DNA of 50,388 bases from Actinomycetota bacterium (GCA_947455705.1 CANGPO010000011.1:1-50388); one strand, 5' to 3'; counted from the stretch's first letter, positions 31,902-49,718 are shown. Notes: generated by a model not told the origin, from the letters alone. Program-made: numbers and translations.

Positions 31902-32228
31902 GTGATAGATGCAGCGACACTCAAGTCACGGTGGGTGGAAATCCTCGACGAACTTGAATCGGTGTCGCGCGCAGCGTGGCTCGCCATGTTCGATGGTCGA
32001 ATCCAGAGTGTTGAGGGCGGTGTTCTCACTCTCGATTTCTCCGACGCCACTAAATTCGCCGGCGTCCATGAGTATGAACGCGATAGTCGCAGCGCATCGT
32101 TTGTTGCCGCATTGGAGGCAAGTATCACCGCAGTCACAGGTGAACGTCTGAACATTGTCCTGTCGCATGCCCTCACCCATCAACCGCCCTATCCCGCTGC
32201 CTGCGCGCCGGATGAGTTCAGTGACTAA
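31902..32228 (+). CDS. Small protein resembling the DnaX (tau) C-terminal domain
   Basis: This protein of about 108 residues has LKSRWVEILDELESVSRAAW, then a strand pair (FDGRIQSVEGGVLTLDFSD) and a helix-strand end (ASITAVTGERLNIVL). This layout resembles the tail domain found in actinobacterial DnaX, where it occurs after the ATPase part. No dnaX gene is nearby, so it would be a free-standing copy. The GTG at 31902 is chosen; frames starting earlier overlap the divergent gene. Its stop overlaps the start of the flippase-like gene. The assignment rests on pattern only. Confidence 0.55.
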   Translation: MIDAATLKSRWVEILDELESVSRAAWLAMFDGRIQSVEGGVLTLDFSDATKFAGVHEYERDSRSASFVAALEASITAVTGERLNIVLSHALTHQPPYPAACAPDEFSD

Positions 32229-33444
32229 TGCTCATAACCGGTTAACTCGGGTGACGAGTTGGTCGTCGATAAGCCAAGCTGCATCTGCGGCAAGCAACGT
32301 CGTCATTGAGTTGGCAATCACCGTATTCATCGGGCTTGTCGGGCTCGGTCAATGGACCATCCGCTACGCGGCGCTCGTCACCGTGATGTACCTCGTGCGC
32401 TCAGCCCTCAGCGACGTCCTACTTGCCGATGATGCGCCGACCGGCGCTCTTCGCGATGACACCCGCACCTCATCGCTCATGGGCTTGGTCTTGACCATCG
32501 GCGTCACCGTCAGCATTGCATGTGCAACTCTGGCAGCAGCGACCCATGACGTCAGTTGGTTGATTGTTGGATTGGCTATGCCCGCGGTGTTGGCTCAGGA
32601 CTTGTTGCGATACATCGGTTTTTGGTCGCTCGAGCCCCGCCTTTCGGCCACCATGGATCTGATCTGGCTGGCTGTTTCACTCATCAGCATCGCCGTCATC
32701 GCGAACACGAAGTCGGTGACGATCGGAATCGCCGCGTGGGGTGTGGGTGCGCTGGTCAGCGCTGGATGGGGACTACTGCACACCGGAATACGGCCCTCAT
32801 CACCTCGTACGGCCATCGGCTGGTGGAGTGCGAACCGCTCACTGGGAGTTCCCACACTGCTAGATACGTCGATGTATTTGTTGGGCAATCAAGGCTTGTG
32901 GTTTTTTGTGGCGGCAGTCGCCGGGGCTCAGGTACTCGGTGAGTTGCGGCTGGCACTACTCCTGGCCAATCCAGCTCTGCTGGTGTATCTGGCGGCCCAG
33001 ACAATACTGGTACCGACCATCACACGCGACGGAGCGACTCGTCGTCATTTACTCACCTACGTTGGCATCGCCATCATTGCCGGTCTCGTGCTTTTCATCA
33101 CCGCAGCCGTCATCGTCTTGCCGATTCTGCGACACGTCGGTTCGATTACTGCGACGACCTCGTCCACGTTGGTGTGGCTCACAACCTGTTACGTGGTGGC
33201 TAGCGCGCCGTATGTCATCACCGCTTCGGTGTTACGAGCGAAACGACACGGCGCAGGATTTCTCACCATGCGGGCCATCACGACAACGATCACGCTCGTT
33301 GTTGCCATCATCGGTGTGTCGACATCGGGTGCACAAGCTGCGATGGCAGGGCTTGCCCTCGGCACCGCGTGCGCGGCCGCTGTTGGGTTATGGCTTGCGA
33401 CACGGTGGCTTTCCACGGCCAGCGCCAGCCAGTCAACGGTCTAG
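32212..33444 (+). CDS. Polysaccharide flippase-like multi-spanning membrane protein
   Basis: This protein of about 410 residues has roughly twelve hydrophobic helices, few charges and the general layout of Wzx/MATE-type lipid-linked glycan flippases. It would move an undecaprenyl-linked sugar chain across the membrane. The start is uncertain: ATG 32212 and GTG 32221 both overlap the end of the DnaX-tail-like gene. It converges with the GT4-methyltransferase gene after 26 bases. The glycan role is supported by the sugar-transferase genes that follow; no specific family was confirmed. Confidence 0.7.
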   Translation: MSSVTNAHNRLTRVTSWSSISQAASAASNVVIELAITVFIGLVGLGQWTIRYAALVTVMYLVRSALSDVLLADDAPTGALRDDTRTSSLMGLVLTIGVTVSIACATLAAATHDVSWLIVGLAMPAVLAQDLLRYIGFWSLEPRLSATMDLIWLAVSLISIAVIANTKSVTIGIAAWGVGALVSAGWGLLHTGIRPSSPRTAIGWWSANRSLGVPTLLDTSMYLLGNQGLWFFVAAVAGAQVLGELRLALLLANPALLVYLAAQTILVPTITRDGATRRHLLTYVGIAIIAGLVLFITAAVIVLPILRHVGSITATTSSTLVWLTTCYVVASAPYVITASVLRAKRHGAGFLTMRAITTTITLVVAIIGVSTSGAQAAMAGLALGTACAAAVGLWLATRWLSTASASQSTV

Positions 33445-33470: not shown

Positions 33471-35357
33471 TTAGAGTTTGTGCGCCAACACAATAAAGGT
33501 CGGTGTCAGCGACAAGGCTGCATGCAACAGCTGATCTGGGACCCCCGCCAGCGATGACGCTTGTCCCGGTAATTTTGCTAGTTCGCGACGGGCCACGTCA
33601 CCGGTCACATCCGTCACCACCAATCCGGCTGATGAGATTGCGTTGAGAAGAGCGCCTCGACTCAAGGGATCAACGTCATACCACTCCCCCTTGCCCGTGG
33701 CCTTGACGAGCCGATCCGCGGTGCGTTGCGGAAGCCAACTCAACAAGGGCAGCCCGTAGTGCGCTTCTACAAGCCGGTACTTGTTCGGAATCGCGATGTA
33801 AACCCAGCCACCAGGCTTCAACACGCGATGAATCTCACGCAGATAGGCGCGCTGTTCGGCTGCATGGCCCACGTGTTCGAGCACGTGATTCGAAACGACG
33901 AGGTCGAACGTTCCATCCGCGTGCGGAAGTTGAGCGCTGTCTAACAGGACAAACTCATAGCCGTGCGTCGTTTGCCGTTCGTCGACACGATCCACCCCGA
34001 TGACAGCACCTGACGTGCCGACATAAGTGGCCAACTCTTGCGCGATGTAGCCAGACCCACATCCGTCGTCAAGAATCGTCGTCCCATCAAGCTCGACGAC
34101 GCCGCTCAGAACGTCCGCGATCGCCGCTGCCTTGGCCGCTCGACTCGCAGGATCGGAAATGACGTGGGCTTGGCGCACTCCCGGAGCGACGGCCCGCCGT
34201 GTCATCGACTCATCCTGGGACAAAGAACCGTCGCGCGATGCGACCGGGCGTAGAACTTCAGCAAGGTACTGATTCCACGCAAGGTCCGCGTCAACAGCCG
34301 TCACGGCTCGGCTCCAGCGGGTTACGTCTTCGGCCGTAACTGCGCTCAACGCCGTCTCCCACGCCCGCACGTCGCCGGCCGCAACAATCAACCCGTTGAC
34401 GTCGTGAACAACCCCAGCGGTTAACGCCGGAACATCACTGACGATGACTGGTAACCCGTATGTCTGCGCCAGCGCTGTGTTTTGCGATCCGGTCGCCTCT
34501 AGATACGGAAGCACCGCGGCATCATGGGTTGAGAACAGATGGGTTACATCCGAACCCGCAACGTATCCCGTTTCGTAATCGACCCGACCGCTCAGCGACG
34601 GCCGCTGAGCCATGAGGCGAAGTCGGGCGTCGAGATCGTCGTCCCAACACTCACCGCGGATCGTCACCGTGACCGACGTAGCGGACTCCATTGCGTCAAG
34701 CAGAAGCTCGAGACCCTTGTATGGCCGAATGAATCCGAACGCGAGGAGTCGCACGGATCCATCAGTTGCACGAGTCGCGCGAGAATCCGAATTACTCTGC
34801 TCCGACGAACGAGCCGGCCCGTGCGGTGCCAGTGGCACCAACCGAATCTCCGCGTCAGGTAAGTGCTTACGTGCCGAGGACTGTTCAGATTCGCTGTGCA
34901 CGATCACCGCATCGACGACCCCGCGAAAAGCATCGACGGCGCGATCCTGCAATGAACTCGACTCATGCGATGTGACGTTGTGGGCGATCAGCACGCGGGT
35001 TGGCGCCGTGGTAGCGCGCGATGCACTCGTCAACAGGCTCCGGTAGGCAGGGACCTGAAACGGGTTCGAATGAGCCACCACAATCAGATCAGCGTTACGC
35101 GCCTGCTTCCCCGCCCGCCACCACGAACTCGGGTCGTACCAGTTCAGCGACCGATGCACCGGTACCGACAATGGAACCTCCTGCGCCCCATCCGGAACCA
35201 CGAGTTCGCCGGGGTAAAGACGCGATGGGTACTGCGAGTCCCAGGAAATAACGGCAACGTCATGGCCGGCTCGGGACAGTTGTCCAGCCAGTTCAGTGGT
35301 GTGCTGGGCAATTCCACCCTTGAACGGGTGGGTTGGGCCCACGACGACGATTCGCAT
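33471..35357 (-). CDS. Fusion of a GT4 glycosyltransferase and a SAM methyltransferase
   Basis: This 628-residue chain joins two enzymes. Residues 1-370 form a GT-B family-4 glycosyltransferase (VGPTHPFKGGIAQHTTELA at the start, FIRPYKGLELLLDAM and TGSQNTALAQTYGLPVIVSD in the second half). Residues 400-628 form a class I methyltransferase with SAM motif ILDDGCGSGYIAQEL, then VIGVDR and SNHVLEHVGH. It may add a sugar and methylate it, or act at the ends of a glycan chain. A 30-residue linker separates the parts. It is divergent from the GT2 gene at 35476. Confidence 0.85.
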   Translation of the reverse strand: MRIVVVGPTHPFKGGIAQHTTELAGQLSRAGHDVAVISWDSQYPSRLYPGELVVPDGAQEVPLSVPVHRSLNWYDPSSWWRAGKQARNADLIVVAHSNPFQVPAYRSLLTSASRATTAPTRVLIAHNVTSHESSSLQDRAVDAFRGVVDAVIVHSESEQSSARKHLPDAEIRLVPLAPHGPARSSEQSNSDSRATRATDGSVRLLAFGFIRPYKGLELLLDAMESATSVTVTIRGECWDDDLDARLRLMAQRPSLSGRVDYETGYVAGSDVTHLFSTHDAAVLPYLEATGSQNTALAQTYGLPVIVSDVPALTAGVVHDVNGLIVAAGDVRAWETALSAVTAEDVTRWSRAVTAVDADLAWNQYLAEVLRPVASRDGSLSQDESMTRRAVAPGVRQAHVISDPASRAAKAAAIADVLSGVVELDGTTILDDGCGSGYIAQELATYVGTSGAVIGVDRVDERQTTHGYEFVLLDSAQLPHADGTFDLVVSNHVLEHVGHAAEQRAYLREIHRVLKPGGWVYIAIPNKYRLVEAHYGLPLLSWLPQRTADRLVKATGKGEWYDVDPLSRGALLNAISSAGLVVTDVTGDVARRELAKLPGQASSLAGVPDQLLHAALSLTPTFIVLAHKL

Positions 35358-35475
35358 TGTGAGGAGCCTATCCTGCGCTCAACTGGCGTGCCGGCAACGC
35401 TAGGTTCCCTGATCAACTGTCACGACAGGGGGCTGATGACCTACCCTGAATGCAATCTTGGCTTTGGAGTATCGC

Positions 35476-36525
35476 GTGACCACACTGATCATTCAGATTC
35501 CGTGTCTGAACGAGGAAGAGCAACTGCCGACCTTGCTGTCTGCGTTGCCTCGCCACATAGACGGATTCGACAAGGTCGAATGGCTCGTCATCGATGACGG
35601 CTCAACTGACCGCACCCTGGACGTCGCGCGCGAGTATGGGGTCGACCACATCGTGCGGTTAACCCACAACAAGGGGCTCGCTAGCGCTTTCCAAGCCGGC
35701 CTTGATGCGTGCCTGAAACTCGGCGCAGATGTCATTGTGAACACCGATGCTGACAACCAGTACGACTCGTCGGCGATCCCCGCTCTGGTAGCCCCCATTC
35801 TGTCTGGCGAGGCAGACATGGTTGTGGGCGATCGCGACGTGAGCAACGTTGCAGAGTTCAGCGCTATCAAGAAGTTTCTGCAGAAGGCCGGAACGCGCGT
35901 CGTCCAGTGGGCATCTGGCACGGATGTGCAGGATGCCACTAGCGGCTTTCGCGCGTACAACCGAGAGGCGGCGCTTCAACTCGTCGTCGTCACGAAGTTC
36001 ACGTACACACTCGAGAGCCTCATCCAGGCCGGTAAGAACCTTGTCGCGATTAGCAATGTGTCAGTTCCACGTAATGACGTGGCACGCCCTTCACGGCTGT
36101 TCAACTCGACCGGCTCGTATGTTCGCCGCAACTCGCTGTCGATCTTCCGGGTGTGGGCCGGCTACGAGCCGCTACGCCTGTTCTGGAGTGCGGCTCTCGT
36201 TTTAGTGATTCTGGCCGCGATTTGCTGGCTTCCGTTCATTGTTTCAGCCGTGACGAATTCGGGTGGGGGTCACCTTCAATCCGTGATTCTGGGATCTGTC
36301 TTCCTTATCGCCGCCGTTCAGATGTTTAGCTTGGGCGTCCTGGCCGACCTGATGGCATCTACCCGGGTCGTCAGCCAGCGCACCCTTGAGCGGGTACGGC
36401 GAATCGAGCTAACGCTCGGCGTCGAACCATCGCACTACGAACGTGTGGATCCCTCACTACACCGCGACGCTGCCAGAGGCAATTCGGGCGATCAACTTTC
36501 GAGTGAAACCACAGTGATTCGGTAG
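35476..36525 (+). CDS. GT2 family glycosyltransferase (DPM1/DpgS-like)
   Basis: This protein of about 349 residues has a GT-A domain at residues 1-220 (IIQIPCLNEEEQLPTLL, VIDDGSTDRT, and the metal motif NTDADNQ), followed by two membrane helices near residues 230-290. The form is that of a polyprenol-phosphate sugar transferase, which loads a sugar on the lipid carrier used by membrane transferases. The GTG at 35476 has GGAG six bases upstream. The last 34 bases overlap the end of the convergent large membrane protein gene. Confidence 0.87.
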   Translation: MTTLIIQIPCLNEEEQLPTLLSALPRHIDGFDKVEWLVIDDGSTDRTLDVAREYGVDHIVRLTHNKGLASAFQAGLDACLKLGADVIVNTDADNQYDSSAIPALVAPILSGEADMVVGDRDVSNVAEFSAIKKFLQKAGTRVVQWASGTDVQDATSGFRAYNREAALQLVVVTKFTYTLESLIQAGKNLVAISNVSVPRNDVARPSRLFNSTGSYVRRNSLSIFRVWAGYEPLRLFWSAALVLVILAAICWLPFIVSAVTNSGGGHLQSVILGSVFLIAAVQMFSLGVLADLMASTRVVSQRTLERVRRIELTLGVEPSHYERVDPSLHRDAARGNSGDQLSSETTVIR

Positions 36526-38585
36526 CTCTTCTCGAACGTCTTGTTCGGTGCAGAGTCCAAGGTTCGCCAGTAAAGAGGCGTGGTCTGGTTGATGACTGAA
36601 TCACGAACGACTGTCGACGGAACCGATGGTTCAACGTTGACGCTGATGATGTGCCAGCCCGTGCGGGCCGCCCAATCTTTCACATCCTCGATGGCTCGCT
36701 GTGCCTTCGGACCAGCAAAATCCTCGGTGCGAACCACGGGTACGTCACAGAACATCCGTAGCGTCGTCTGAAGTGATCCGGCGTAGCCACCGGTGATCAG
36801 GACAAATGTGTGGTCTCGATCGACCGTCTTCTTAGCGATCGCATCACATGTACGATCCAGCATCGTCCCGATCCCGTCATATTGACGCACCAGAGCAACC
36901 GGCTTCGTGGTCGTCGCCGTCGGGAAAACGAAGCAGGCGACGATTACAGCGGCCACGACGGAACGCACGACTAGGCCAAATCCGCTTCTGGGCACAAGGC
37001 TAGTGACGCGGGCCGCCGCGAAGGTGGCCAGCAGAATCAGAACCGGATAGCCGAGCATCAGCAAATGACGAGATGCCCACAACTGATCGGGTGTGATGTG
37101 CCACGCCCAGAAGTAGAGCGGTAACAGCACACCGAAACTCCCCAGCACTGGCGTCCACGCGTCTCGGTCTTCGGATCGTGAGCGCACCGCAAACCAGATC
37201 AGGCCAAGTACAGCCATCGCCAGGAGGAACCACCCGAAGTACCAGGCGGTTGAAACAGTGGTGAGTTCGTCATAGGTGCGCGCCTGATCAGGAACTTGCC
37301 CATTCATCACCTGGACGAGAGACACCTCGTGCTGGTAGCCGTCCTTGAGGTCAAGCGTGAGCCGAACCTTTTCCCACAACGGACGTGAGGTGAGAAAAAG
37401 AAAAGCAGCGACAAAGACCCACGTGACTGTCGAGTAGACAACATCCTTATGGGTCTTCGTGCGATCGGAAATCCAACCTCGGATGGTGATGACGTTATTC
37501 GCGCATCGCGTTACCACGAACGCGCCAATAATCAGGCCGACAGCCTCTGACATCGTTTCCCAGCGCAGCCGGTAGAGGTATTCCGGAGTGGTCACCGAAT
37601 ACACACAGATTGCGATCAAGGGCACGACGGCCGCGGGCAATGCAATGCGGTACGCGGCGTCACGTACCTGCCCGGGTTCATGATCTGATGCCACGACCCA
37701 TATCCCTGCGGCGAGAACGGCCACTAAACCGCCAACCGCGACGCCGTCGAGACGAGCGAAGGTCGTCGCACCCATCGTTGCAGCGGCAAGTGCTGCCAGT
37801 CTGGGATCCGCCTGCGATAGCGCTTTAGTCAGGAGGGCGAGTCCACCAAACAGCAGGATCATCGTGATGCCCTCGCTGAAGGCACTGCGCGCCACATACA
37901 GGGTCGGAAGCGCGATCGCCATCAACAGTGGTGGCACCACCGCCCACCACCCAGGTAGAAACCGACGCGCCCAGGCGAACAGAGCAACCAGCGCCAATCC
38001 CGTGAGAATCGCGTTACCCCACATCAGACCCATCGGTCCGAAAATGTGTTGGAAGTGTCCAAGCAGAATCGGCAGCAGCGGGCCACCCTGCGACAGAATG
38101 CTGCCGGGCCAGATTTGCACATACGCGTAGCCGGCCCCTGTGAGCCCCGGCACGGCTCTGGTTATGTCAGCCGTACCCGCGTCGAGCGGGAATGAATTAT
38201 GCGACCCGAACCATTTCGCTGTCGTTGAGTAGAAGCCTGGATCGCGTTCGACAACAAACCACTGCCCGGCTGTGATGCAGCAAAACACGGCGAACGCCAC
38301 CGCGCCGAGCCAGACCGAAACCACCACTGATACGTCGCGATCAGATGTCTTGTCAGCGCCAATCCGAGGCGCACATACGTACCGACCCACGAATCCAGCC
38401 GCCGCGATAGATGCAACTACTGCAAGCCAACCCGGAAGGTGAATCAGGGCGCATGCAATGGCTGTGACACCGTAGACGGCGATTCCGGGCGCAATGATGT
38501 CCGGCGATAGCGCAAGCCAACGCCGGATGCGACTCACTGAACGCTGCGCAGTGAGCGTCACATCGGCGGTTGAAGTGGCTGACAC
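36492..38585 (-). CDS. Large multi-spanning GT-C-like membrane protein
   Basis: This 697-residue protein has about eleven to thirteen hydrophobic helices and a soluble C-terminal part of about 140 residues. The first outer loop contains acidic residues (VVERDPGFYSTTAKWFG), as in GT-C transferases that use polyprenol-phosphate sugars. It could take the sugar made available by the adjacent GT2 enzyme. The assignment to GT-C is by layout, not by a named motif. The start is a GTG without a strong ribosome site. Convergent with the GT2 gene by 34 bases. Confidence 0.7.
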   Translation of the reverse strand: MSATSTADVTLTAQRSVSRIRRWLALSPDIIAPGIAVYGVTAIACALIHLPGWLAVVASIAAAGFVGRYVCAPRIGADKTSDRDVSVVVSVWLGAVAFAVFCCITAGQWFVVERDPGFYSTTAKWFGSHNSFPLDAGTADITRAVPGLTGAGYAYVQIWPGSILSQGGPLLPILLGHFQHIFGPMGLMWGNAILTGLALVALFAWARRFLPGWWAVVPPLLMAIALPTLYVARSAFSEGITMILLFGGLALLTKALSQADPRLAALAAATMGATTFARLDGVAVGGLVAVLAAGIWVVASDHEPGQVRDAAYRIALPAAVVPLIAICVYSVTTPEYLYRLRWETMSEAVGLIIGAFVVTRCANNVITIRGWISDRTKTHKDVVYSTVTWVFVAAFLFLTSRPLWEKVRLTLDLKDGYQHEVSLVQVMNGQVPDQARTYDELTTVSTAWYFGWFLLAMAVLGLIWFAVRSRSEDRDAWTPVLGSFGVLLPLYFWAWHITPDQLWASRHLLMLGYPVLILLATFAAARVTSLVPRSGFGLVVRSVVAAVIVACFVFPTATTTKPVALVRQYDGIGTMLDRTCDAIAKKTVDRDHTFVLITGGYAGSLQTTLRMFCDVPVVRTEDFAGPKAQRAIEDVKDWAARTGWHIISVNVEPSVPSTVVRDSVINQTTPLYWRTLDSAPNKTFEKSYRITVVSLES

Positions 38586-38656
38586 GCGCCAAGACTACGT
38601 CCTGAACCGTCCACGATTGGCTACGACTCGACAACGATCCCGAGCGTGCACGTGGA

Positions 38657-39634
38657 CTACGTGATGAGCGGCACCGTTGGGTAACGCACCAACACCTTGT
38701 GCTTGGACGATCGAGGTGCGAACCACCGATTGTTCGACCACGTGTTCGTGGGTCTCGACCACGACGCCACGGGGCCGTAGAGACCGCAATTCGCGTGATA
38801 TTTCACGCCGAATGTGTTGTTGATGAACCGAATACTGGTGTTGGGGCGTTCGGACGGCAGATTGCCTAGGTAGACGCAGTACGAGCCACCGTTGAACTGG
38901 TTCGAATCAATGATCCAATCCGAGTTTCCGCCATAGGGATTTTGTGGATACACAGACAGAGCCGATGAGCAGTTGTGCGTACCACAGCCAAAGACGTTGT
39001 TGATGAGGCGAACACGACGGGTACCGCCGAGAGTGCCTGCCGCCGACGCATGATTCGACGTGCTGTTAGAAAAACCGTCGAAGTACGAGTTAGTAACCGA
39101 CATTCCGGTAGTGATGACGATGCCGCGTTGCGTGCTGTGGACGTTGACGTGGTCTAGACGCACTCCCGTCCCGCCATAGAACGCACGGTCAGGATGTTTG
39201 CCGGGCAGAGCTCCGATCTCAACGTACTGGAGCTTGAGCCCCCTAAATTTTGTACTCTGCCGGACGGCGTAGAAGTCATTGCCAGCAAGGATTCGCGAGC
39301 GCCGAATGGTCACGTTGTTGGCCATGATCGTCAGGGCGTGGTTGATCGACTTTCCGTCAATCACCGTTCCGCTTCGTGTAATCGTGTACGGACCTTTGTA
39401 GACCGTGAGATGACTGATCCCTGAGGCGGCCCAACCGGTAGAGCGTGTGGTTGGGAGGACCCGTGCGACGACAACCGCTGGCGCAACGACTGCGCGACTA
39501 GCGATCGCAGCAGATGTTGACGGCGAGGGCGACACCTGCGCATTGGCGACAGATGAACCCGATAGTGCAATGGTGGAAAGGGCGATGATGGACGCCCCAC
39601 TGACAATGGCCGTTCTCGTTAATGCACGGTGCAC
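38657..39634 (-). CDS. Secreted beta-helix-type protein, paralogue 1
   Basis: This 325-residue protein has a signal peptide (cleavage probably after SSVANA near residue 32), then about 280 residues shared with the next two genes. Landmarks are STGWAASGI, VIDGKSI, NNVTIRRSRIL, HSTQRGI, NHASAAGTLGG, GCGTHNCSSA, FNGGSYC and CGLYGPVASWS. Repeated short Asn/Ile/Val strands suggest a right-handed parallel beta-helix of the pectate-lyase type, which often binds or cuts polysaccharide. No catalytic residues can be fixed by eye. A GTG start follows a GGGGG site. It is the shortest of three tandem copies. Confidence 0.8.
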   Translation of the reverse strand: MHRALTRTAIVSGASIIALSTIALSGSSVANAQVSPSPSTSAAIASRAVVAPAVVVARVLPTTRSTGWAASGISHLTVYKGPYTITRSGTVIDGKSINHALTIMANNVTIRRSRILAGNDFYAVRQSTKFRGLKLQYVEIGALPGKHPDRAFYGGTGVRLDHVNVHSTQRGIVITTGMSVTNSYFDGFSNSTSNHASAAGTLGGTRRVRLINNVFGCGTHNCSSALSVYPQNPYGGNSDWIIDSNQFNGGSYCVYLGNLPSERPNTSIRFINNTFGVKYHANCGLYGPVASWSRPTNTWSNNRWFAPRSSKHKVLVRYPTVPLIT

Positions 39635-39731
39635 GGACTACCCCCGACTCAGACGAACGTTTTGGCACGTGGCCACCTTCAGCCTCTCACGGAAACGCAG
39701 ATGCTCGGTTACATACCAGTGCAGGCCGCGG

Positions 39732-41144
39732 TCATTTACCCGGAACAACGAGCACCCCGTCCCGAGGCTGCCCTGGGTCAGCCCAACGATTGTTCGACCA
39801 CACATTGCCCGCGCTCCATGACCATGAAGCCAAGGGCCCATACACCCCACAATTCGGGCTGTATTCGGTGCCAAAGTAGTTACCCGTCACGTTCAGATTC
39901 GTATTGGGCGATTCACCCGCGGCTGCATTAAAGCCCATGTAAAGGCAGTAACTTCCGCCGTTGAATCGATTCCCCGTAATGATCCAGTTGGTGTTCGGAC
40001 CTTGCTCGGGATAGAGACTCATTGCAGACGAACACAGGTGAGTCCCACAACCCAAGACGCTGTTACTAATGACCACGTTATGCACGTTTCCCGAGGAGCC
40101 AATGGCCGATGCGTGATTCGCTGAGGGATTATCGAAATCGTCCACATACGAATTCACCAGCACCATCCCGTCGGCTGCAGACACGCCACGCTGTGTGCCG
40201 TGAATGAACACGTGATTCATCACAAGATTCGGCGCAGGATGCACCGCTCGATCTGGATGGGCACCAGCTACCGCAGTGATCTCGACGTGATCAAGTGTGA
40301 GACCACAGCCGTCGGCCGTTTCGTACAGAGCAAAATTGCCCGTCGGCGCCTCGATCCGTGAACGAGTGATCGTCACATTCGGAGCATCGATGACCAACGC
40401 CCCTCGAATGAGTTTCCCGTCGATGACGGCTCCGGGTGTAGTCACGGTCAGTGGTCCGTTGAACAACGACAGAGCGGACAGCCCCGCTCCCATCCACCCC
40501 GTAGTTTGCGTCGTGGGCAACGTGGATGGTCGGCCACTCACGGCCACGAGACCGAGGTCGCTAGGAGGCGAGGACGCGCAACCGCGACCTGGCAAAGCCT
40601 CAGGTGTTGGAACGACAGCCGGTGGCGCGGATGGAGACGACCGCGAGGGGCTCGGCTGCGGCCATGTAGCTGGTGGCGGATTCACCCATGGAACTGCGCT
40701 AGCTGTGGCAGCTGGTGTCGGTTGAGTGAGCTGTTGCCCTTGCGTTTCCTGCACGGCCACAGTCGATTGCTCGTTCACCGAACTATCGCTACGTGATCCC
40801 AAAATACCGGCTACGGCGTTTCTCACTGCCTTCGCGACGTGCACGATCGCCGTCTTAACCTTCGAAACGAGGCTTATGCCGTTGGTCTGCGCAATGGGCG
40901 TCGGAATCTGAGTTGCAGACGTGTCCGGCACCTCAGAGCTACCCACCTCCGGTGTTGGTTGAGCAACACCCGGCTGGGTCGTCGCCGAACTACCAGATTG
41001 AGCCTGCGCCACCGAGTCGTCGTTGGGGGCGAGGACTGCGAGAGCAACCACCCAGGTAAGGGCCAAAACAGCGACGGTCACAAGCGAGACAACGACGATT
41101 GGCCTACCGGAAATGGACGCATACCACCCACGCATGCGATCCAT
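39732..41144 (-). CDS. Membrane-anchored beta-helix-type protein, paralogue 2
   Basis: This 470-residue protein has one membrane helix at residues 17-40, an outer Pro/Ser/Thr/Ala-rich stalk at about 45-190, and a C-terminal beta-helix-like domain matching its neighbours (TTGWMGAGL, VIDGKLI, NVTITRSRI, TQRGVSAADGMVLVNSYVDD, GCGTHLCSSAMS). The N-terminal helix is not obviously cleaved, so the domain may stay tied to the membrane on a flexible stalk. The last 154 residues are about 80 percent identical to paralogue 3 by hand alignment. The same likely polysaccharide role applies. Confidence 0.8.
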   Translation of the reverse strand: MDRMRGWYASISGRPIVVVSLVTVAVLALTWVVALAVLAPNDDSVAQAQSGSSATTQPGVAQPTPEVGSSEVPDTSATQIPTPIAQTNGISLVSKVKTAIVHVAKAVRNAVAGILGSRSDSSVNEQSTVAVQETQGQQLTQPTPAATASAVPWVNPPPATWPQPSPSRSSPSAPPAVVPTPEALPGRGCASSPPSDLGLVAVSGRPSTLPTTQTTGWMGAGLSALSLFNGPLTVTTPGAVIDGKLIRGALVIDAPNVTITRSRIEAPTGNFALYETADGCGLTLDHVEITAVAGAHPDRAVHPAPNLVMNHVFIHGTQRGVSAADGMVLVNSYVDDFDNPSANHASAIGSSGNVHNVVISNSVLGCGTHLCSSAMSLYPEQGPNTNWIITGNRFNGGSYCLYMGFNAAAGESPNTNLNVTGNYFGTEYSPNCGVYGPLASWSWSAGNVWSNNRWADPGQPRDGVLVVPGK

Positions 41145-41236
41145 TTTTCAACATTAACACGGCTTCCGCCGGTTCACCTCGAGTGAAGATCCACCGTGGC
41201 CAACACCTGCGACATGCCGTTACCTCGGGCCTACGC

Positions 41237-42727
41237 TCAGTTACCCGGAACGACCAGTGTGCTGTTCTGCGATCGCCCGGGAGCTACCCAGCGATTATTC
41301 GTCCATACATTTCCGGCGCTCCACGACCACGACGCCAATGGTCCGTATACACCACAATCTGCGCTGTACTTCGTCCCGAAAGTATTGCCGGTCACGCGGA
41401 TGCCGGTATTCGGAGATTCGCCAGCTTCAGGGGTGTAACCGAGGTAGAGGCAATAACTTCCCCCGTTGAAACGGTTACCCGCAATCGTCCAGTTGGTGTT
41501 TGGACCCTGCTCTGGGTAGGCACTCATCGCCGACGAACATAAGTGCGTCCCGCATCCCAGCACATTGTTGCTAATGATCACGTTGTGAACATTGCCTGAC
41601 GAGCCGACTGCGGACGCATGATTGATCGACGGGTTATCAAAATCGTCGACGTAGGAATTCACCAGGACCATGCCGTTCGAAGCTGAGACACCACGCTGCG
41701 TTCTATGAATCAGAACATGATCGGCTGTGAGATTTGCCCCAACAGCAACCGCACGATCTGGGTGTTGACCGGACTGTGCAGCGATCTCGACATACGAAAG
41801 AGTCACGCCCGAGTAGTTGGCCGGTTGGTGAAGCGCGTAATCAGTTGATGTGGCTAGGATGCGAGATCGTTTGATAGTCACGTTATTCGCCTCGATGAGC
41901 AGCGAACCCCTGATGTCATACCCGTCGAGGACGACCCCGTTGGTGGTGATGGTGAGCGGCCCGCGATACGGCCGCAGGGATTCGATGCCCGACGCAACCC
42001 AGCCCGTCGTGCTTGGCGACGGCAATACGCCAGTCGAAGCCGGCACGGAGCGAGACCTCAACGAGGAGCCGACCGCGGCCACGAAGTTCACGTCCACGAG
42101 ATAGCTCGTCGACGTTGATCGCGTGGGTCGTTGTCCGTGGTTGAAGCCGTACTTGCCGGCCCCCGCCACGGTCACGATTGGACCGTGAGCCTGGGTGCGA
42201 ACAAACGCTCCTCTGACCACGGAAAACGGACCGCTGCTAACTCCGTACGTAACGGTCAAAGTTGTGTTCGGTTTGACTGCGAGGGAATCGGCAAGCATCG
42301 CGATCTGCCATCCATGCGTGGACTCGCGGGTAAACGTGACCTGCCGCAGCAGTGTCCCGGAACTCGACCACAAACGACCAACATGCTTGTTCGACGCGGA
42401 ACCGGACGCTTTGTAGAAGCGAATGGCGCTGATCCGACCGCTCGTTCGGACCGTGAATGTGGTGCCCAATTCCGCCGACGTGTGAGTGGAGCCGCGGGAC
42501 ACCGACGCCGGTACCACGGCACCGTACATGGAAACACCCGCGGGTTGGAAAGTCGCCGCGGACACCCGCGCCGCTGTCTGCACCCCGCGGCTGACCTGTG
42601 TAGCGTCAAGGGCGGACCTGCTAGACACCGAAACGGTCGATGCGAAGGTTGGCGACCCTAGAGTCACGAGCGACGTCGCCAGAATGCTTGACGCAATCAC
42701 CGAACGGCGTAGCGAGCGGATGTTCAT
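41237..42727 (-). CDS. Secreted DUF4082 plus beta-helix-type protein, paralogue 3
   Basis: This 496-residue protein has a signal peptide (cleavage near GSPTFAS), a DUF4082-like beta-sandwich at about residues 65-175 (LGTTFTVRTSGRISAIRFYKA, then HVGRLWSSSGTLLRQVTF), a linker, and the shared beta-helix-like domain from about 215 to the end. DUF4082 modules occur in secreted proteins beside carbohydrate-active domains and may bind glycan. It is the first gene of the tandem set on this strand and follows a structured leader (42778-42828). The C-terminal part is very close to paralogue 2. Confidence 0.82.
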   Translation of the reverse strand: MNIRSLRRSVIASSILATSLVTLGSPTFASTVSVSSRSALDATQVSRGVQTAARVSAATFQPAGVSMYGAVVPASVSRGSTHTSAELGTTFTVRTSGRISAIRFYKASGSASNKHVGRLWSSSGTLLRQVTFTRESTHGWQIAMLADSLAVKPNTTLTVTYGVSSGPFSVVRGAFVRTQAHGPIVTVAGAGKYGFNHGQRPTRSTSTSYLVDVNFVAAVGSSLRSRSVPASTGVLPSPSTTGWVASGIESLRPYRGPLTITTNGVVLDGYDIRGSLLIEANNVTIKRSRILATSTDYALHQPANYSGVTLSYVEIAAQSGQHPDRAVAVGANLTADHVLIHRTQRGVSASNGMVLVNSYVDDFDNPSINHASAVGSSGNVHNVIISNNVLGCGTHLCSSAMSAYPEQGPNTNWTIAGNRFNGGSYCLYLGYTPEAGESPNTGIRVTGNTFGTKYSADCGVYGPLASWSWSAGNVWTNNRWVAPGRSQNSTLVVPGN

Positions 42728-42777
42728 GACGTCCCAACTTTGAGAGTGAAGATGGGAATAGCGTCGACACCACGTTG

Positions 42778-42828
42778 GGCCGTCTTGACGAAAGCACCCC
42801 GCGCGCGATGACTTTCATACGAACGGCC
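42778..42828 (-). promoter_or_regulatory. Structured leader before the DUF4082/beta-helix gene
   Basis: A hairpin with GGCCGT/ACGGCC at the ends and ATGAAAG/CTTTCGT inside spans 51 bases in the 5-prime region. A competing long-range pair, GTTGGGC (42774-42780) with GCCCAAC (42861-42867), overlaps the first stem. The two pairings exclude each other, as in a switch. It does not match any riboswitch class I can name. Confidence 0.45.
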
Positions 42829-42941
42829 GACCTCGTGGTCGTTACGGGTTAACTCACTCAGCCCAACAACTCAAAGGGGGTAGTCACCCTCGGTCATTCC
42901 CTGGCCAGGGAGCTTGGAAAGTTCGTTCGCCTGAACCGCGG

Positions 42942-44798
42942 TTACGACGTGGCGAACTCGCGTTCCATATCGGCACTTTGCTTGATCACGTTGGCGATGA
43001 CGATCAGATTCGTCAGCAGATTCGTGGACGCAGATGTGGGATTGATCGCCCCGGCACCGATCTGGTCGATGGCGGCTACATCAATCCACTCGAAGGTCAA
43101 CACTGGCTCGAGCAAGCTCGGTTCTTGTCGCCACTTCTGCGCTACCGCGCTGGCAAGATCAAGGGCTCCCGCAGGCGGTGCTTCCTTTCCCGCATTTACT
43201 CGTTGATCGATCTTCCTACGGGCACCTTTGGCAAAACTCTTTGCCCTTTCGAGCCGAGCCAGCGAAGAAGGATAAGCCAACGATGCAGGCGTTCGATCCG
43301 GGTCCACGATGGAACCGTGAGCCAGACCCATCGCTGCCAGCGAGGGCTCCATGCGCTGAAGCACTCTGGAAAAAATGCGCGAATCCCGCCTTTGCTCGAA
43401 GGACAGTCCGCGTCCCCACTCCAAGTAGGGCAGCGATGCGAATGGCAGCAGGATCGGCCTGTGGTGAGATGAAACAGAGAAGTCGGCACCAGCCCATCGC
43501 TGGAAGCGGCCAAAACAGTAGAAATCTGCCAGTGATCGTCGCCAGTTGCTTCCGTAAGACAGCAACTCCTGGTAAATCCGCTCATCGGTGGCCGAGCGGG
43601 CTTGGTCGAGAGCACCTGGCACAAACAGAGCCGGTTGAACGCTCTGATTGGAAAAGACCCAAAAGCGACTCACGATGGATGTGCGCTTGCGGGTAACTGA
43701 TCCGGACACAGCCACTGGGCCGTACAGCGGTCGCCCATACTCGCCATTGTTACCGTTGAAACGGGGCCTCGGCTCGGTTTGAGCCTCGACCCAATCCAAG
43801 ACCGCAGTTGCTACGGGTCCTGTGAGCGCATCATGCGCATTCGCTGATCGCAACACATTCGACCAAGCTTCGTCGATCCCGATCTGGCGGATGTCACGCA
43901 AGTCGACAAAGTCGTGTTCTGTGCCGATCGTGTGCGCAATGTCGTCAGCGATGATCCAGTCGGGATCTGTCGGCTGACCAATGGTGAACATGCGGGATCT
44001 CAGTCGATTCTCGGCGGAAAGTGCCGAGACCAAGCCTCGACTATCCAATCCGCCGCTCATCTCAACGCTCAAGGTTCCGCCATGACGATCGGCAGCACCG
44101 TTAACGAGGCTGCGCATCACGTCGATTCCCTGCTCGACGGCCAACTCATCTGATACTGGCGCGGCGGTGTGGATATGGATCACGCGTTGCATGTCCAGGT
44201 GCCCGTCCCGCAATTCGGCGCGATGGCCTTCAGACAACTTGCGCACCTCAAGGTAGGGCGATCGGGCGCTGTCAAAGTTGCCCACGAGCGAGAACCCTTG
44301 AACAGCTTCGTGATCGACCGACACTCGCTCGAGCAAAGCAAGTGCCGTAACGCTATTCGACACCGCAGCCCCGAATGACGTACGACGAACATAAAGTCCC
44401 GACAGGCCACACACGTCGGTGTATGCCTCGATCGGTGCGCCCAGCGTCCGTCTCACGACAATCGCCAACGGCGAGGCAAGCTCGCGAAGGACTGAATCCC
44501 CACTCCTAAGGCGTGCGAGCAGGCTCGGCCCGTCTACCGAATCCCCATTGAGATAGGCCGGCGACATGGACAGTAGAAAGGCGAAGGTTCCCTCGGCACT
44601 CGGGGCAAGGTCGTACTCATGGGAGATCCCCGCAGCTAAGACCGTCTCGTTACCCGATTGGTCAACGAGCACATCGCTCGAATCGAGCGCGAGATCCTCA
44701 GAGGTAGAAACGAGTGCTTTCGTAGCTCTCGCGACGATCGCTGCGCGACGATCCGGCGTCACTGCCGGATCGAACGTGAGCGCAAGAGTCCGTCGCAT
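42942..44798 (-). CDS. Asparagine-synthetase-like ATP-dependent ligase without glutaminase cysteine
   Basis: This protein of about 618 residues has the ATP pyrophosphatase loop SGGLDS at residues 248-253 and an asparagine-synthetase C-terminal half. The N-terminal half resembles the class II glutaminase fold (for example TDVCGLSGLYVRR) but lacks the Met-Cys start that releases ammonia, so it probably uses an amine donor directly, as lasso peptide cyclases and beta-lactam synthetase do. Genes of this type also occur in polysaccharide clusters. The start is uncertain (ATG 44798 or an upstream GTG at 44873). It precedes the beta-helix genes on the same strand. Confidence 0.78.
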   Translation of the reverse strand: MRRTLALTFDPAVTPDRRAAIVARATKALVSTSEDLALDSSDVLVDQSGNETVLAAGISHEYDLAPSAEGTFAFLLSMSPAYLNGDSVDGPSLLARLRSGDSVLRELASPLAIVVRRTLGAPIEAYTDVCGLSGLYVRRTSFGAAVSNSVTALALLERVSVDHEAVQGFSLVGNFDSARSPYLEVRKLSEGHRAELRDGHLDMQRVIHIHTAAPVSDELAVEQGIDVMRSLVNGAADRHGGTLSVEMSGGLDSRGLVSALSAENRLRSRMFTIGQPTDPDWIIADDIAHTIGTEHDFVDLRDIRQIGIDEAWSNVLRSANAHDALTGPVATAVLDWVEAQTEPRPRFNGNNGEYGRPLYGPVAVSGSVTRKRTSIVSRFWVFSNQSVQPALFVPGALDQARSATDERIYQELLSYGSNWRRSLADFYCFGRFQRWAGADFSVSSHHRPILLPFASLPYLEWGRGLSFEQRRDSRIFSRVLQRMEPSLAAMGLAHGSIVDPDRTPASLAYPSSLARLERAKSFAKGARRKIDQRVNAGKEAPPAGALDLASAVAQKWRQEPSLLEPVLTFEWIDVAAIDQIGAGAINPTSASTNLLTNLIVIANVIKQSADMEREFATS

Positions 44799-45193
44799 AT
44801 CGTCGAGTGTAACGGGGAGGGCTCGTTCACCCCACCGGTGCAGACCATAGGTTAATGACTCAAGTGTCAACACTTATGCACCAAATCGGCAGCGCAGGAG
44901 TCGGCAAAAACCGCACTCCATGCACCCGATTACCGCGTCCGGCCCGGGTAATCGACACTGCAAACATTTCAGACTTTGAAACGTACGATGATCATGATGT
45001 GCGCGCATCTCGGCAAATGCACTGCGCTACAACGTCTTTCAGCATTTCTGTCAAACTAATGCTGACTCGCCTAACATGCGGATTGGACGAGCGCCTAAAC
45101 ATGTCAACAAATCTTCCTCATATGGAGACACTTCACTCTCATACTGATCCACATCATGAGTCGACCATGACTCATCCGAGAAAGGATCCCCCC
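44799..45193. other. Non-coding region between divergent genes
   Basis: This 395-base gap separates the ligase gene from the DUF1097 gene. It contains no supported gene; in-frame upstream codons for the DUF1097 frame lack ribosome sites. A possible promoter for the plus strand is TGTCAA near 45050 with TAACAT near 45074. The rest shows no clear repeat or stem. Confidence 0.4.
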
Positions 45194-46894: not shown

Positions 46895-47623
46895 TCAGCT
46901 CACGCGCGCGAGATCGCGTCGGGTATACCGCAGATGTGCCCATTCCTCTTCCACAATCACGCGGATGCAGTCGCCGACGGTGGGGCGCCATTCGCTCCCC
47001 CATGGGTCCTGCCGCTCCGCGGCAAGCAGTTCCGGCGTGGCAGAGGCTAGGAAGTCTGTGACCATCTGCTGGCGCTCGGAGCGTACGACGAGAACTTCTT
47101 CATACGTTGGAACATCCACGCGAAAGATCGACATGTCGAAGCCCATACCCTCGGCACCGGTGAAGATCTGGCCAATCTCATGGAAAGGCTGAGCAATGCC
47201 GAGTATCGCCCCGCGCAGCCATGCATCGGTAGCCAGGATGAGGTGCCGCAGAGTCTGAGCTAGCGACCACTCGTCCTCAACGTGCACATCCACAAGTTCG
47301 ATGGGCGTGCCGTCAATCGTCGTCTGCCACGCAGCCTGCACAGCGACCCAGCCCTCACGCAGGCCCTCTGGTGTCTGGGCCTTCTGCAATTCACGTCCGG
47401 GGAACTGACGGTTGAGTTCGGCGTCAACAAACGGGACGACGTCGACACCGTTGACGAACAGGCTGCCGAAGAACAGGTCGTGACTGTCAATGTCGAGCCC
47501 TTGCACATCAACACTGCGCATCGTCACACCTGTGAGATCGGAGTATCGAAACGAAGCATTCTTGAAGCTTGTTCTCGCGAAGGACGCGCCTTCGAACTCA
47601 TCTGTGCCGGAATACGTTGTCAT
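46895..47623 (-). CDS. Pentapeptide-repeat plus DinB-like domain protein
   Basis: This protein of about 242 residues starts with a short pentapeptide-repeat coil at residues 8-50 (FEGASFARTSFKNASFRYSDLTGV) and continues with a DinB-like four-helix domain at about 85-240 (DEWSLAQTLRHLILATDAWLRGA and CIRVIVEEEWAHLRYTRRDL, with metal-type histidines). DinB proteins often act as thiol-dependent metalloenzymes, for example with mycothiol. The ATG at 47623 is preferred; a longer reading frame upstream is not supported. The combination of domains is uncommon. Confidence 0.75.
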   Translation of the reverse strand: MTTYSGTDEFEGASFARTSFKNASFRYSDLTGVTMRSVDVQGLDIDSHDLFFGSLFVNGVDVVPFVDAELNRQFPGRELQKAQTPEGLREGWVAVQAAWQTTIDGTPIELVDVHVEDEWSLAQTLRHLILATDAWLRGAILGIAQPFHEIGQIFTGAEGMGFDMSIFRVDVPTYEEVLVVRSERQQMVTDFLASATPELLAAERQDPWGSEWRPTVGDCIRVIVEEEWAHLRYTRRDLARVS

Positions 47624-47717
47624 CGATCCATTATCACCAACATGGTCTCGCAACTGGTGATCGACATCCATCCATGGAGAGCGCCGACCGAGATCGCTGA
47701 TTGAGGTTCTTGCGAAC

Positions 47718-47978
47718 TTACTGGGGCTTGGATTGATTGGAGCGACGGTACAAGAAGTACGAGATTCCACCCATCACAGCCAGTCCTGCAGCCAGTCCTG
47801 CGAGCGCAGCAAACGACGCATCTTTAGTGATGAACGTCTTGACCGCCTCGTAGCCAAAGAATCCCGCCAACAGCGGGCCCACGTTCTTGTTGCCCATGAC
47901 TGAATCCGGATGTTTCGTCGACCAGTACACCAGGACGCCCGCGATAACGATGCAGATGAGCGATAAGAGCATGTACAT
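47718..47978 (-). CDS. Small membrane protein, unknown function
   Basis: This protein of about 86 residues has two hydrophobic helices: YMLLSLICIVIAGVLVYW near the start and FAALAGLAAGLAVMGGISYFL near the end, with a short basic tail. The ATG at 47978 follows an AAAGG site; the longer frame continues into non-coding sequence. I do not recognise the family. It ends 95 bases upstream of the pentapeptide-DinB start. Confidence 0.6.
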   Translation of the reverse strand: MYMLLSLICIVIAGVLVYWSTKHPDSVMGNKNVGPLLAGFFGYEAVKTFITKDASFAALAGLAAGLAVMGGISYFLYRRSNQSKPQ

Positions 47979-48309: not shown

Positions 48310-48345
48310 TGTGCTGTTTCAGGACATATTTATCGCATGTTTCAC
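48310..48345 (+). repeat. IS481-type left inverted repeat
   Basis: Starts TGTGCTGTTTCAGGACAT and includes TTATCGCATG. It matches the right repeat at 24 of 36 positions, including the shared blocks GGACAT and TTATCG. Confidence 0.75.
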
Positions 48346-48391
48346 GTCATCCTTATCACTTTCGAGGCACGGTTGGGCCAGCCTGCCAAGC

Positions 48392-49597
48392 ATGTCCAAG
48401 CAGCGCGTCATCGTCGAAGCAGTCCTAGCCGGCAAGTCTCAACGCGAGGTCGCCCGCCTCTACGGCGTCAGCCAACCTCGCGTTAGCCAGCTCGTTGCAG
48501 CATGGCGAACCGGAGGCTGGCCAGCCCTAGAACCCCAATCCAGACGACCCAAAACCAACCCCAACACAACACCACAAACAACCATCGACCACGTCCTTGC
48601 CCTACGCCAAGAACTCCTCGACTACGGCGCCGACGCTGGCCCCCACTCCATCGCCAACGCACTAGAAGACACCATGGACCAGCCACCCTCAGTAACCACA
48701 ATCTGGCGGATCCTCACCCGAGCCGGCGCCATCACACCCGAACCACGCAAACGACCCAAACGCTCCTGGACCCGCTTCCAAGCTGACCTACCCAACGAAT
48801 GCTGGCAAGCAGACTTCACCCACACTCCCCTAGGCAACGGCACCGACGCTGAAATCCTCATCTGGCTCGACGACCACTCCCGATTCATCATCTCCGCCAC
48901 CGCACACAAACCCGTCACCGGAAACATCGTCCTGGCAACCTTCCGAGCCGCCTGCAACCAACACGGCACACCCCAATCCACGTTGACAGACAACGGATTA
49001 GTGTTCACCACCCGTTTCCGAGGCGGAGCCAACGCATTCGAAATTGAACTACTCAACCTCAACATCACACAAAAAAATGGCAGCCCCAACCACCCCCAAA
49101 CCCAAGGCAAAGTCGAACGCCTCAACCAAACCCTCAAGAAATGGCTCAACGCTAGATCACAAGCACACAACCTCGACGAACTTCAAACCCTGCTCAACGA
49201 ATTCGTCGACTACTACAACCACCGACGCAAACACCGATCACTACAACGACAAACCCCCAACACCCTCTACACCGCCCGAGCCAAAGCCACCCCCGAACAC
49301 AACCGCGACGGCCACTACCGCATCCGACAAGACACCGTCCACAAGACAGGCTCCGTCATGCTCAGACGCGCCGGACGCACCCACCACATCCAACTCGGCA
49401 CCGCACTCGGCGGCACACCAGTACGCATGCTCATCCACGACCTCGACGTCACCATCATCAACCGAGAAACCGGAGAAATCCTCCGCGAACTCACCATCAA
49501 CCCCGACAAAGACAGCCAACCCCGCGGCCTCAAACCAGGACCCCAACCAGGCAACAAAAAAGGCGGCATGCCCAAAGGATTCAAGTTCAAAAAATAA
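48392..49597 (+). CDS. IS481-family transposase
   Basis: This transposase of about 401 residues has an N-terminal helix-turn-helix (QREVARLYGVSQPRVSQLV) and an integrase-type catalytic core with the acidic triad Asp141 (CWQADFTH), Asp200 (LTDNG) and Glu242 (QTQGKVERLNQ). It cuts and joins the ends of the IS. The ATG at 48392 is preferred to the GTG at 48311, which lies in the inverted repeat. The reading frame is intact, so the element may still be active. The C-terminal tail is rich in Lys and Gly. Confidence 0.93.
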   Translation: MSKQRVIVEAVLAGKSQREVARLYGVSQPRVSQLVAAWRTGGWPALEPQSRRPKTNPNTTPQTTIDHVLALRQELLDYGADAGPHSIANALEDTMDQPPSVTTIWRILTRAGAITPEPRKRPKRSWTRFQADLPNECWQADFTHTPLGNGTDAEILIWLDDHSRFIISATAHKPVTGNIVLATFRAACNQHGTPQSTLTDNGLVFTTRFRGGANAFEIELLNLNITQKNGSPNHPQTQGKVERLNQTLKKWLNARSQAHNLDELQTLLNEFVDYYNHRRKHRSLQRQTPNTLYTARAKATPEHNRDGHYRIRQDTVHKTGSVMLRRAGRTHHIQLGTALGGTPVRMLIHDLDVTIINRETGEILRELTINPDKDSQPRGLKPGPQPGNKKGGMPKGFKFKK

Positions 49598-49604
49598 GAA
49601 TGTC

Positions 49605-49640
49605 CCGGGACATCCGATAAGGATGTCCCGGGACATTACA
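49605..49640 (-). repeat. IS481-type right inverted repeat
   Basis: On the minus strand it starts TGTAATGTCCCGGGACAT and includes TTATCGGATG. The doubled CCCGGG palindromes could also form hairpins that stop transcription entering from the tRNA gene. Confidence 0.75.
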
Positions 49641-49644
49641 ATAG

Positions 49645-49718
49645 TAGCGGGGACAGGATTTGAACCTGTGACCTCTGGGTTATGAGCCCAGCGAGCTACC
49701 GAGCTGCTCCACCCCGCG
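49645..49718 (-). tRNA. Initiator tRNA-Met (anticodon CAT)
   Basis: This 74-base tRNA folds as a cloverleaf with anticodon CAT at 49682-49684. It has three G:C pairs at the bottom of the anticodon stem (GGG and CCC) and a mismatch at the end of the acceptor stem (C1 opposite U72), both marks of initiator tRNA. The CCA end is not encoded (the next bases are CTA), so it must be added by enzyme. The IS right end lies only four bases beyond the 3-prime end. Confidence 0.95.

Follow-up and report, generated by a model that had tools for sequence, protein, structure and literature searches.

The DNA analysed here, a stretch of 50,388 nucleotides from an Actinomycetota bacterium (GCA_947455705.1 CANGPO010000011.1:1-50388; from here on the window), carries three tandem paralogous genes, in the order c3, c2, c1, whose products have a common C-terminal domain that is predicted to be a beta-helix. 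The three proteins have different tethering signals in their sequences, their family is linked to exopolysaccharide genes, and the set is present or absent as one block. The explanation that we favour, with moderate confidence, is that c1, c2 and c3 are beta-helix proteins which are exported and then, outside the membrane, either act on the cell's own Wzx/Wzy-type exopolysaccharide or hold it.

Three paralogues with unlike N-termini

A sequence-only reading of the window had pointed to three tandem genes at 38657, 39732 and 41237, and open reading frames are present at these positions on the minus strand (41237-42727, 39732-41144 and 38657-39634 for c3, c2 and c1; Table 1). The domain that they share is somewhat shorter than the approximately 280 residues first proposed (262-266 residues), and the sharing itself is clear: the domains are 68% (c2/c3), 55% (c1/c3) and 51% (c1/c2) identical, and c3 finds the other copies in the genome with E-values of 1e-84 to 1e-121, hence the likeness is not caused by chance. 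For the final 154 residues of c2 and c3, an identity of about 80% had been claimed and 79.9% was measured. The domains of c2 and c3 are 74, 85 and 41% identical at codon positions 1, 2 and 3, indicating that the duplication is old and that the protein was kept by selection; a recent duplication is ruled out by the third codon positions. A fourth copy, which also has a DUF4082 domain, is present on another contig (C24) of the same genome (G000).

The N-termini differ in the way that the sequence-only reading had described. c1 has a signal-peptide-like N-terminus and c2 a hydrophobic anchor (residues 16-40), followed by a stalk of about 165 residues that is rich in proline, threonine, serine and alanine. 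c3 starts with a signal-peptide-like sequence, followed by a DUF4082 domain (PF13313, E 1.4e-31, 109.8 bits with a gathering cut-off of 28.4). Here and in all relatives, the N-terminal classes were assigned by simple rules (hydropathy, lipobox pattern and our own open reading frame starts) rather than by a trained predictor. Scans for promoters and terminators gave no signal above shuffled sequences.

Predicted fold of the common domain

No Pfam or NCBIfam model matches the common domain of c1, c2 or c3; there are sub-threshold similarities, of which only the one to NosD is sensible. c1-c3 also lack a match to the Pfam model Beta_helix (PF13229); of the full-length family members, 27 of 61 do match it at E<=0.01 (best 5e-13). 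For the c3 domain, an AlphaFold2 model, built from an alignment of 24 sequences (the window proteins and proteins of other family loci), is a right-handed parallel beta-helix with short strands at regular spacing (pLDDT 91.1, pTM 0.90). Structure prediction thus bears out the beta-helix that had been proposed from the sequence, and at the level of the model we regard the fold of the c3 domain as settled. A fold of c1 from the single sequence was poor (pLDDT 37) and was not used.

Structural neighbours of the model were searched with Foldseek and then aligned with VIA-align. The top solved match is an alginate epimerase/lyase (8ja4, Z 20.5, root mean square deviation 2.8 over 213 residues). PL6/AlgE/AlgG enzymes, phage tailspikes, GH87 glucanases, GH136, NosD and the adhesin PfbA follow within about 2 Z units (Z about 18-20), so closely that the best matches are in effect tied. 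For DUF4082, a comparison with PDB sequences gave nothing usable. Within the helix domain, one histidine (His370 in c3 numbering) is invariant in 80 of 80 family sequences, and further polar positions on adjacent turns are conserved.

Linkage to exopolysaccharide genes

The 193 genes that lie within three genes of family members are dominated by GT2 (23), Wzy_C (12) and Wzx (about 8). Among 120 control genes of the same genomes, all three are outside the 25 commonest families; as the control list ends with these 25, a control count of up to 2 is possible for each. At this bound of 2, the excess of GT2 has a p of 5e-4, while the excess of Wzx alone is non-significant. Relatives of Wzz/Wzy, Wzx, GT2 or GT4 are found in 29 of 37 family neighbourhoods and in 0 of 20 control stretches; the corresponding p of 3e-9 is optimistic, because the gene clusters were picked for recurring near the family and the loci are not independent.

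The window's genome and a congener, G007, provide two reciprocal sites. The exopolysaccharide locus of G007 (contig C64) has genes for a GT4, an Asn-synthetase-like ligase, a sugar transferase, Wzx, a DUF4082-helix protein, a polysaccharide deacetylase, GT2s, Wzz and Wzy. The DUF4082-helix gene lies between wzx and the deacetylase gene and its product is 46.5% identical to c3 over 417 residues. The same locus is present on contig C8 of the window's genome, with about 70-90% protein identity and without the helix gene: only 124 bp separate wzx from the deacetylase gene. At the second site the situation is reversed: the window is syntenic with contig C20 of G007 from 28.4 to 47.0 kb (blastn and tblastn), with the exception of the block that contains c1, c2, c3 and a ligase gene (38586-45139). 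The block may have been gained in the window's genome or lost in G007. A mobile element with terminal repeats was considered and the edges of the block were checked; no such repeats were seen. Nor were phage genes identified next to the block. In G005 (contig C32, L167:1394-3427), a secreted DUF5122 propeller-repeat protein is encoded upstream of the glycosyltransferase-like membrane gene that flanks the set in the window, at the place of the helix block, which suggests that this position is a variable slot for surface proteins.

The ligase of the block is 40% identical to the ligase of the exopolysaccharide locus of G007. Among the genomes searched, none but the window's and G007 have it, and these two are also the ones with close helix relatives. 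It has the PP-loop motif SGGxDS (as SGGLDS), and with the start as called it begins with MLTLE; a glutaminase function is unlikely, since there is no cysteine at position 2 to serve as the glutaminase nucleophile.

Distribution of the family

Searched with a profile of the domain, 78 of 395 genomes of the class have family members, many of these in tandem pairs or triples; in a wider sample of the phylum the family is rare (7 of 296 genomes). Named relatives include proteins of Aeromicrobium and Planosporangium, which together with the gene content point to an actinomycete as the source of the window. Others are encoded on rhizobial plasmids, one of them within an exopolysaccharide cluster that also has wecB and genes for a sugar transferase, glycosyltransferases and a CpsD-type kinase. 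A tree of 80 domains unites the window copies, the C24 copy and the three close copies of G007 in one clade (100/100). The copies in many tandem loci are mutual nearest relatives, indicating that duplication, or homogenisation of the domain, occurred repeatedly.

The recurring tandem pattern is one of two or three copies with unlike N-termini, and commonly a short copy that has a lipobox or transmembrane anchor is paired with a longer one whose stalk is rich in proline, threonine and serine. In one genus, two species share a conserved triplet. DUF4082 is present in 17 family proteins, and in one relative (L085:9293-11305) a malectin carbohydrate-binding domain precedes the helix (E 4.5e-47). 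Recurrence of the set with glycan genes in other genomes had been named in the sequence-only reading as a check: tandem sets do recur beside such genes, and the exact set of three modules is not conserved elsewhere.

Phage contigs of IMG/VR also carry family members, some of them adjoining an endolysin gene; a tblastn search against phage records found no relative, although the IMG/VR contigs had given some. On two of these contigs, the helix protein has an export signal or anchor and is encoded shortly after the endolysin gene (L098:6383-8711 and L099:6238-8729), and on a third a helix protein, likewise with an export signal or anchor, is encoded between head and tail genes (L097:317-16727). 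It is unusual for a phage to encode an exported surface-glycan protein.

Possible functions

If c1-c3 serve the exopolysaccharide of their own cell, c2 would be tethered to the membrane on its long stalk and c1 and c3 would apparently be released, the latter with DUF4082 as an additional module; one glycan-facing domain would therefore be found at several distances from the cell. Of the possible actions, processing of the polymer in the groove of the helix, by a lyase, hydrolase or epimerase, would be the likeliest. The substrate of the ligase would be a sugar acid, in the same polymer or in the precursor of that polymer, which it would convert to an amide as WbpS does; lacking Cys2, it would depend on another source for the ammonia or other amine. 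The sequence-only reading had suggested that the set may process or display a surface polysaccharide, which fits the genomic setting and the modelled fold. Its observations are confirmed and its interpretation is partly supported.

Several results weigh against this explanation. The neighbourhood of the window itself has no Pfam match to Wzx or Wzy, the locus with these genes being on another contig, and the helix set is flanked only by glycosyltransferases and by membrane proteins without Pfam match. Glycan genes are lacking at 8 of the 37 family loci, and the fourth copy (L073:7940-11130 on G000:C24) adjoins a glutamine-synthetase-like gene with no glycan genes beside it, in a neighbourhood that is common to both congeners (also at L054:1311-6107 on G007:C68). 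No Pfam or NCBIfam model of PL6, AlgE/AlgG, the RbmB type or any other lyase, hydrolase or epimerase family matches c1-c3, and a profile of 59 helix members matches no solved sequence of the PDB. Finally, the aspartate close to the invariant histidine (HxD), present in 74% of the members, is a serine or glutamine in the clade of the window, and other polar positions on adjacent turns diverge in this clade too.

The loss of this aspartate also speaks for helix domains that are not catalytic at all and bind the exopolysaccharide, retaining or linking it at the surface as a matrix protein or adhesin would, with c2 as the anchor and c1 and c3 as parts of the matrix. Stalks and tethers, the malectin module of one relative and the presence of the non-enzymatic adhesin PfbA and of NosD among the solved structural matches are all consistent with such a role. 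However, the nearest folds are mostly polysaccharide enzymes, and the conservation of His370 and of neighbouring polar positions amounts to more constraint than a pure scaffold needs. Pure binding is possible in our view, if rather doubtful, and because of the fold company, the genomic setting and the invariance of His370 we rank enzyme action slightly above it.

Two further explanations were considered. The proteins could be surface depolymerases or receptor modifiers that pass between phages and hosts and are retained as a trait for defence or exclusion. This might be read from the occurrence of the family on phage contigs, in some cases adjoining an endolysin gene, from the conserved site at which the block is either present or missing, and from G005, where a different secreted protein is encoded upstream of the same membrane gene. 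Yet neither phage genes next to the block nor terminal repeats at its edges were seen, and the window copies form a clade of their own with bacterial relatives; we consider such phage-linked cargo quite improbable. Catabolic depolymerases for foreign polysaccharides of plants or algae, close to glycan genes by chance, would have their fold in common with pectate and alginate lyases, but the genes nearby are for synthesis and export (Wzx, Wzy, Wzz, GT2) and carbohydrate-uptake genes are absent from the list of the commonest neighbour families. This is the least probable of the explanations considered.

A role on the cell's own exopolysaccharide could be extended further: the block may be a cassette that diversifies this polymer, consisting of an amide ligase and tandem beta-helix proteins (one tethered, the others released), moving as a unit between glycan loci, sharing its family with phages and tailoring the self polysaccharide in a strain-specific way. 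We regard this extension as unlikely.

Comparison with known systems

Beta-helix proteins in exopolysaccharide systems are a known kind, given the precedents of RbmB and Bcam1339. RbmB of Vibrio cholerae is a VPS lyase that has been compared with PL6 (PMC11637428); like the proteins proposed here, it is a parallel beta-helix protein that acts on the exopolysaccharide of its producer, which it cleaves. In contrast to RbmB, to which no sequence-family match was found, the window set is tandem and has a membrane-tethered copy and DUF4082. Bcam1339 of Burkholderia cenocepacia, annotated as hypothetical, is a beta-helix-repeat protein with one transmembrane segment, encoded in a Wzx-containing exopolysaccharide cluster (Bcam1330-1341; PMC3584217). 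It is a single copy and matches TIGR03805, whereas the window proteins have no match to this NCBIfam model at E<=1.

PL6 alginate lyases and AlgE/AlgG mannuronan epimerases share the fold (Z about 18-20), and AlgG is tied to exopolysaccharide synthesis, but their identity to the c3 domain is only 10-17% and no family model matches. The tailspike depolymerases of phages (Dettilon, CBA120, Sf6) have a beta-helix fold at similar Z; they are parts of the virion, while the window proteins are exported, and their genes have bacterial glycan genes as neighbours. The ligase resembles Asn synthetases of the type of WbpS, which makes uronamides (PMC3684757), in being an Asn_synthase-domain protein in a polysaccharide setting, and differs from them in the missing cysteine at position 2 and thus in its unlikely glutaminase function.

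The literature search returned no description of DUF4082 or of tandem beta-helix sets with exopolysaccharide, which is weak evidence of novelty, as few subscription papers were covered. In the literature searched, the family appears to be unnamed, and neither the arrangement of tethered and released tandem copies nor the block with the ligase appears to have been described. The proposal of an undescribed system therefore holds for the family and its arrangement and not for the kind of system. This unnamed exported family is tied to exopolysaccharide loci and common, occurring in roughly a fifth of the class's sampled genomes, and copies with different tethering predict the site at which the polymer is processed. 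As enzymes, its members would be candidate new lyases or epimerases of exopolysaccharide, and otherwise candidate matrix anchors. The paired present and absent sites in two congeners make their role directly testable.

Flanking genes

A glycan membrane enzyme and a ligase had been named as neighbours of the set, and both are found: the former as a 13-transmembrane protein without Pfam match, whose only glycosyltransferase match is weak (NCBIfam NF047440, E 0.003, below cut-off) and which is probably a GT-C-type glycosyltransferase, the latter as the Asn_synthase-domain protein described above. The 10-transmembrane protein encoded at 32155-33444 is possibly a flippase.

Table 1. Features of the window, with positions counted from its first nucleotide
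Feature	Position	Strand	Description	Basis
c1	38657..39634	-	exported beta-helix protein, 325 aa, GTG start; signal peptide and helix domain only	open reading frame, translation
c1 beta-helix domain	38675..39457	-		hidden Markov model match, alignment
c2	39732..41144	-	membrane-anchored beta-helix protein, 470 aa; hydrophobic anchor, stalk and helix domain	translation
c2 beta-helix domain	39735..40520	-		hidden Markov model match, alignment
c3	41237..42727	-	exported DUF4082 and beta-helix protein, 496 aa	translation, PF13313
c3 beta-helix domain	41240..42025	-	residues 235-496, includes His370	AlphaFold2; conservation in 80 sequences
c3 DUF4082 domain	42095..42514	-	residues 72-211	Pfam
Block with c1, c2, c3 and ligase	38586..45139	.	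~6.5 kb; ~0.3 kb at G007:C20	blastn/tblastn, edge comparison
Ligase	42942..44873	-	Asn-synthetase-like ATP-dependent ligase, 643 aa	PF00733, E 1.1e-4, 22.4 bits (cut-off 21)
Membrane protein	36492..38585	-	13 transmembrane segments	hydropathy; relatives in G007 (69%) and G005 (48%)
GT2	35458..36525	+	GT2 glycosyltransferase	PF00535, E 2.1e-23
GT4-methyltransferase	33471..35357	-	GT4 glycosyltransferase fused to class I methyltransferase	PF13692/PF08241; G007 relative 67% identical
Membrane protein	32155..33444	+	10 transmembrane segments; no Pfam match	hydropathy; G007 relative 70% identical, likewise without Pfam match

Beyond the block, the window encodes a DinB-domain protein with a pentapeptide-repeat match at its N-terminus (46895-47770). 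At 48311-49718, a gene for an integrase-core transposase adjoins a tRNA-Met gene, and the end of the window shows a strong change in GC and AT skew.

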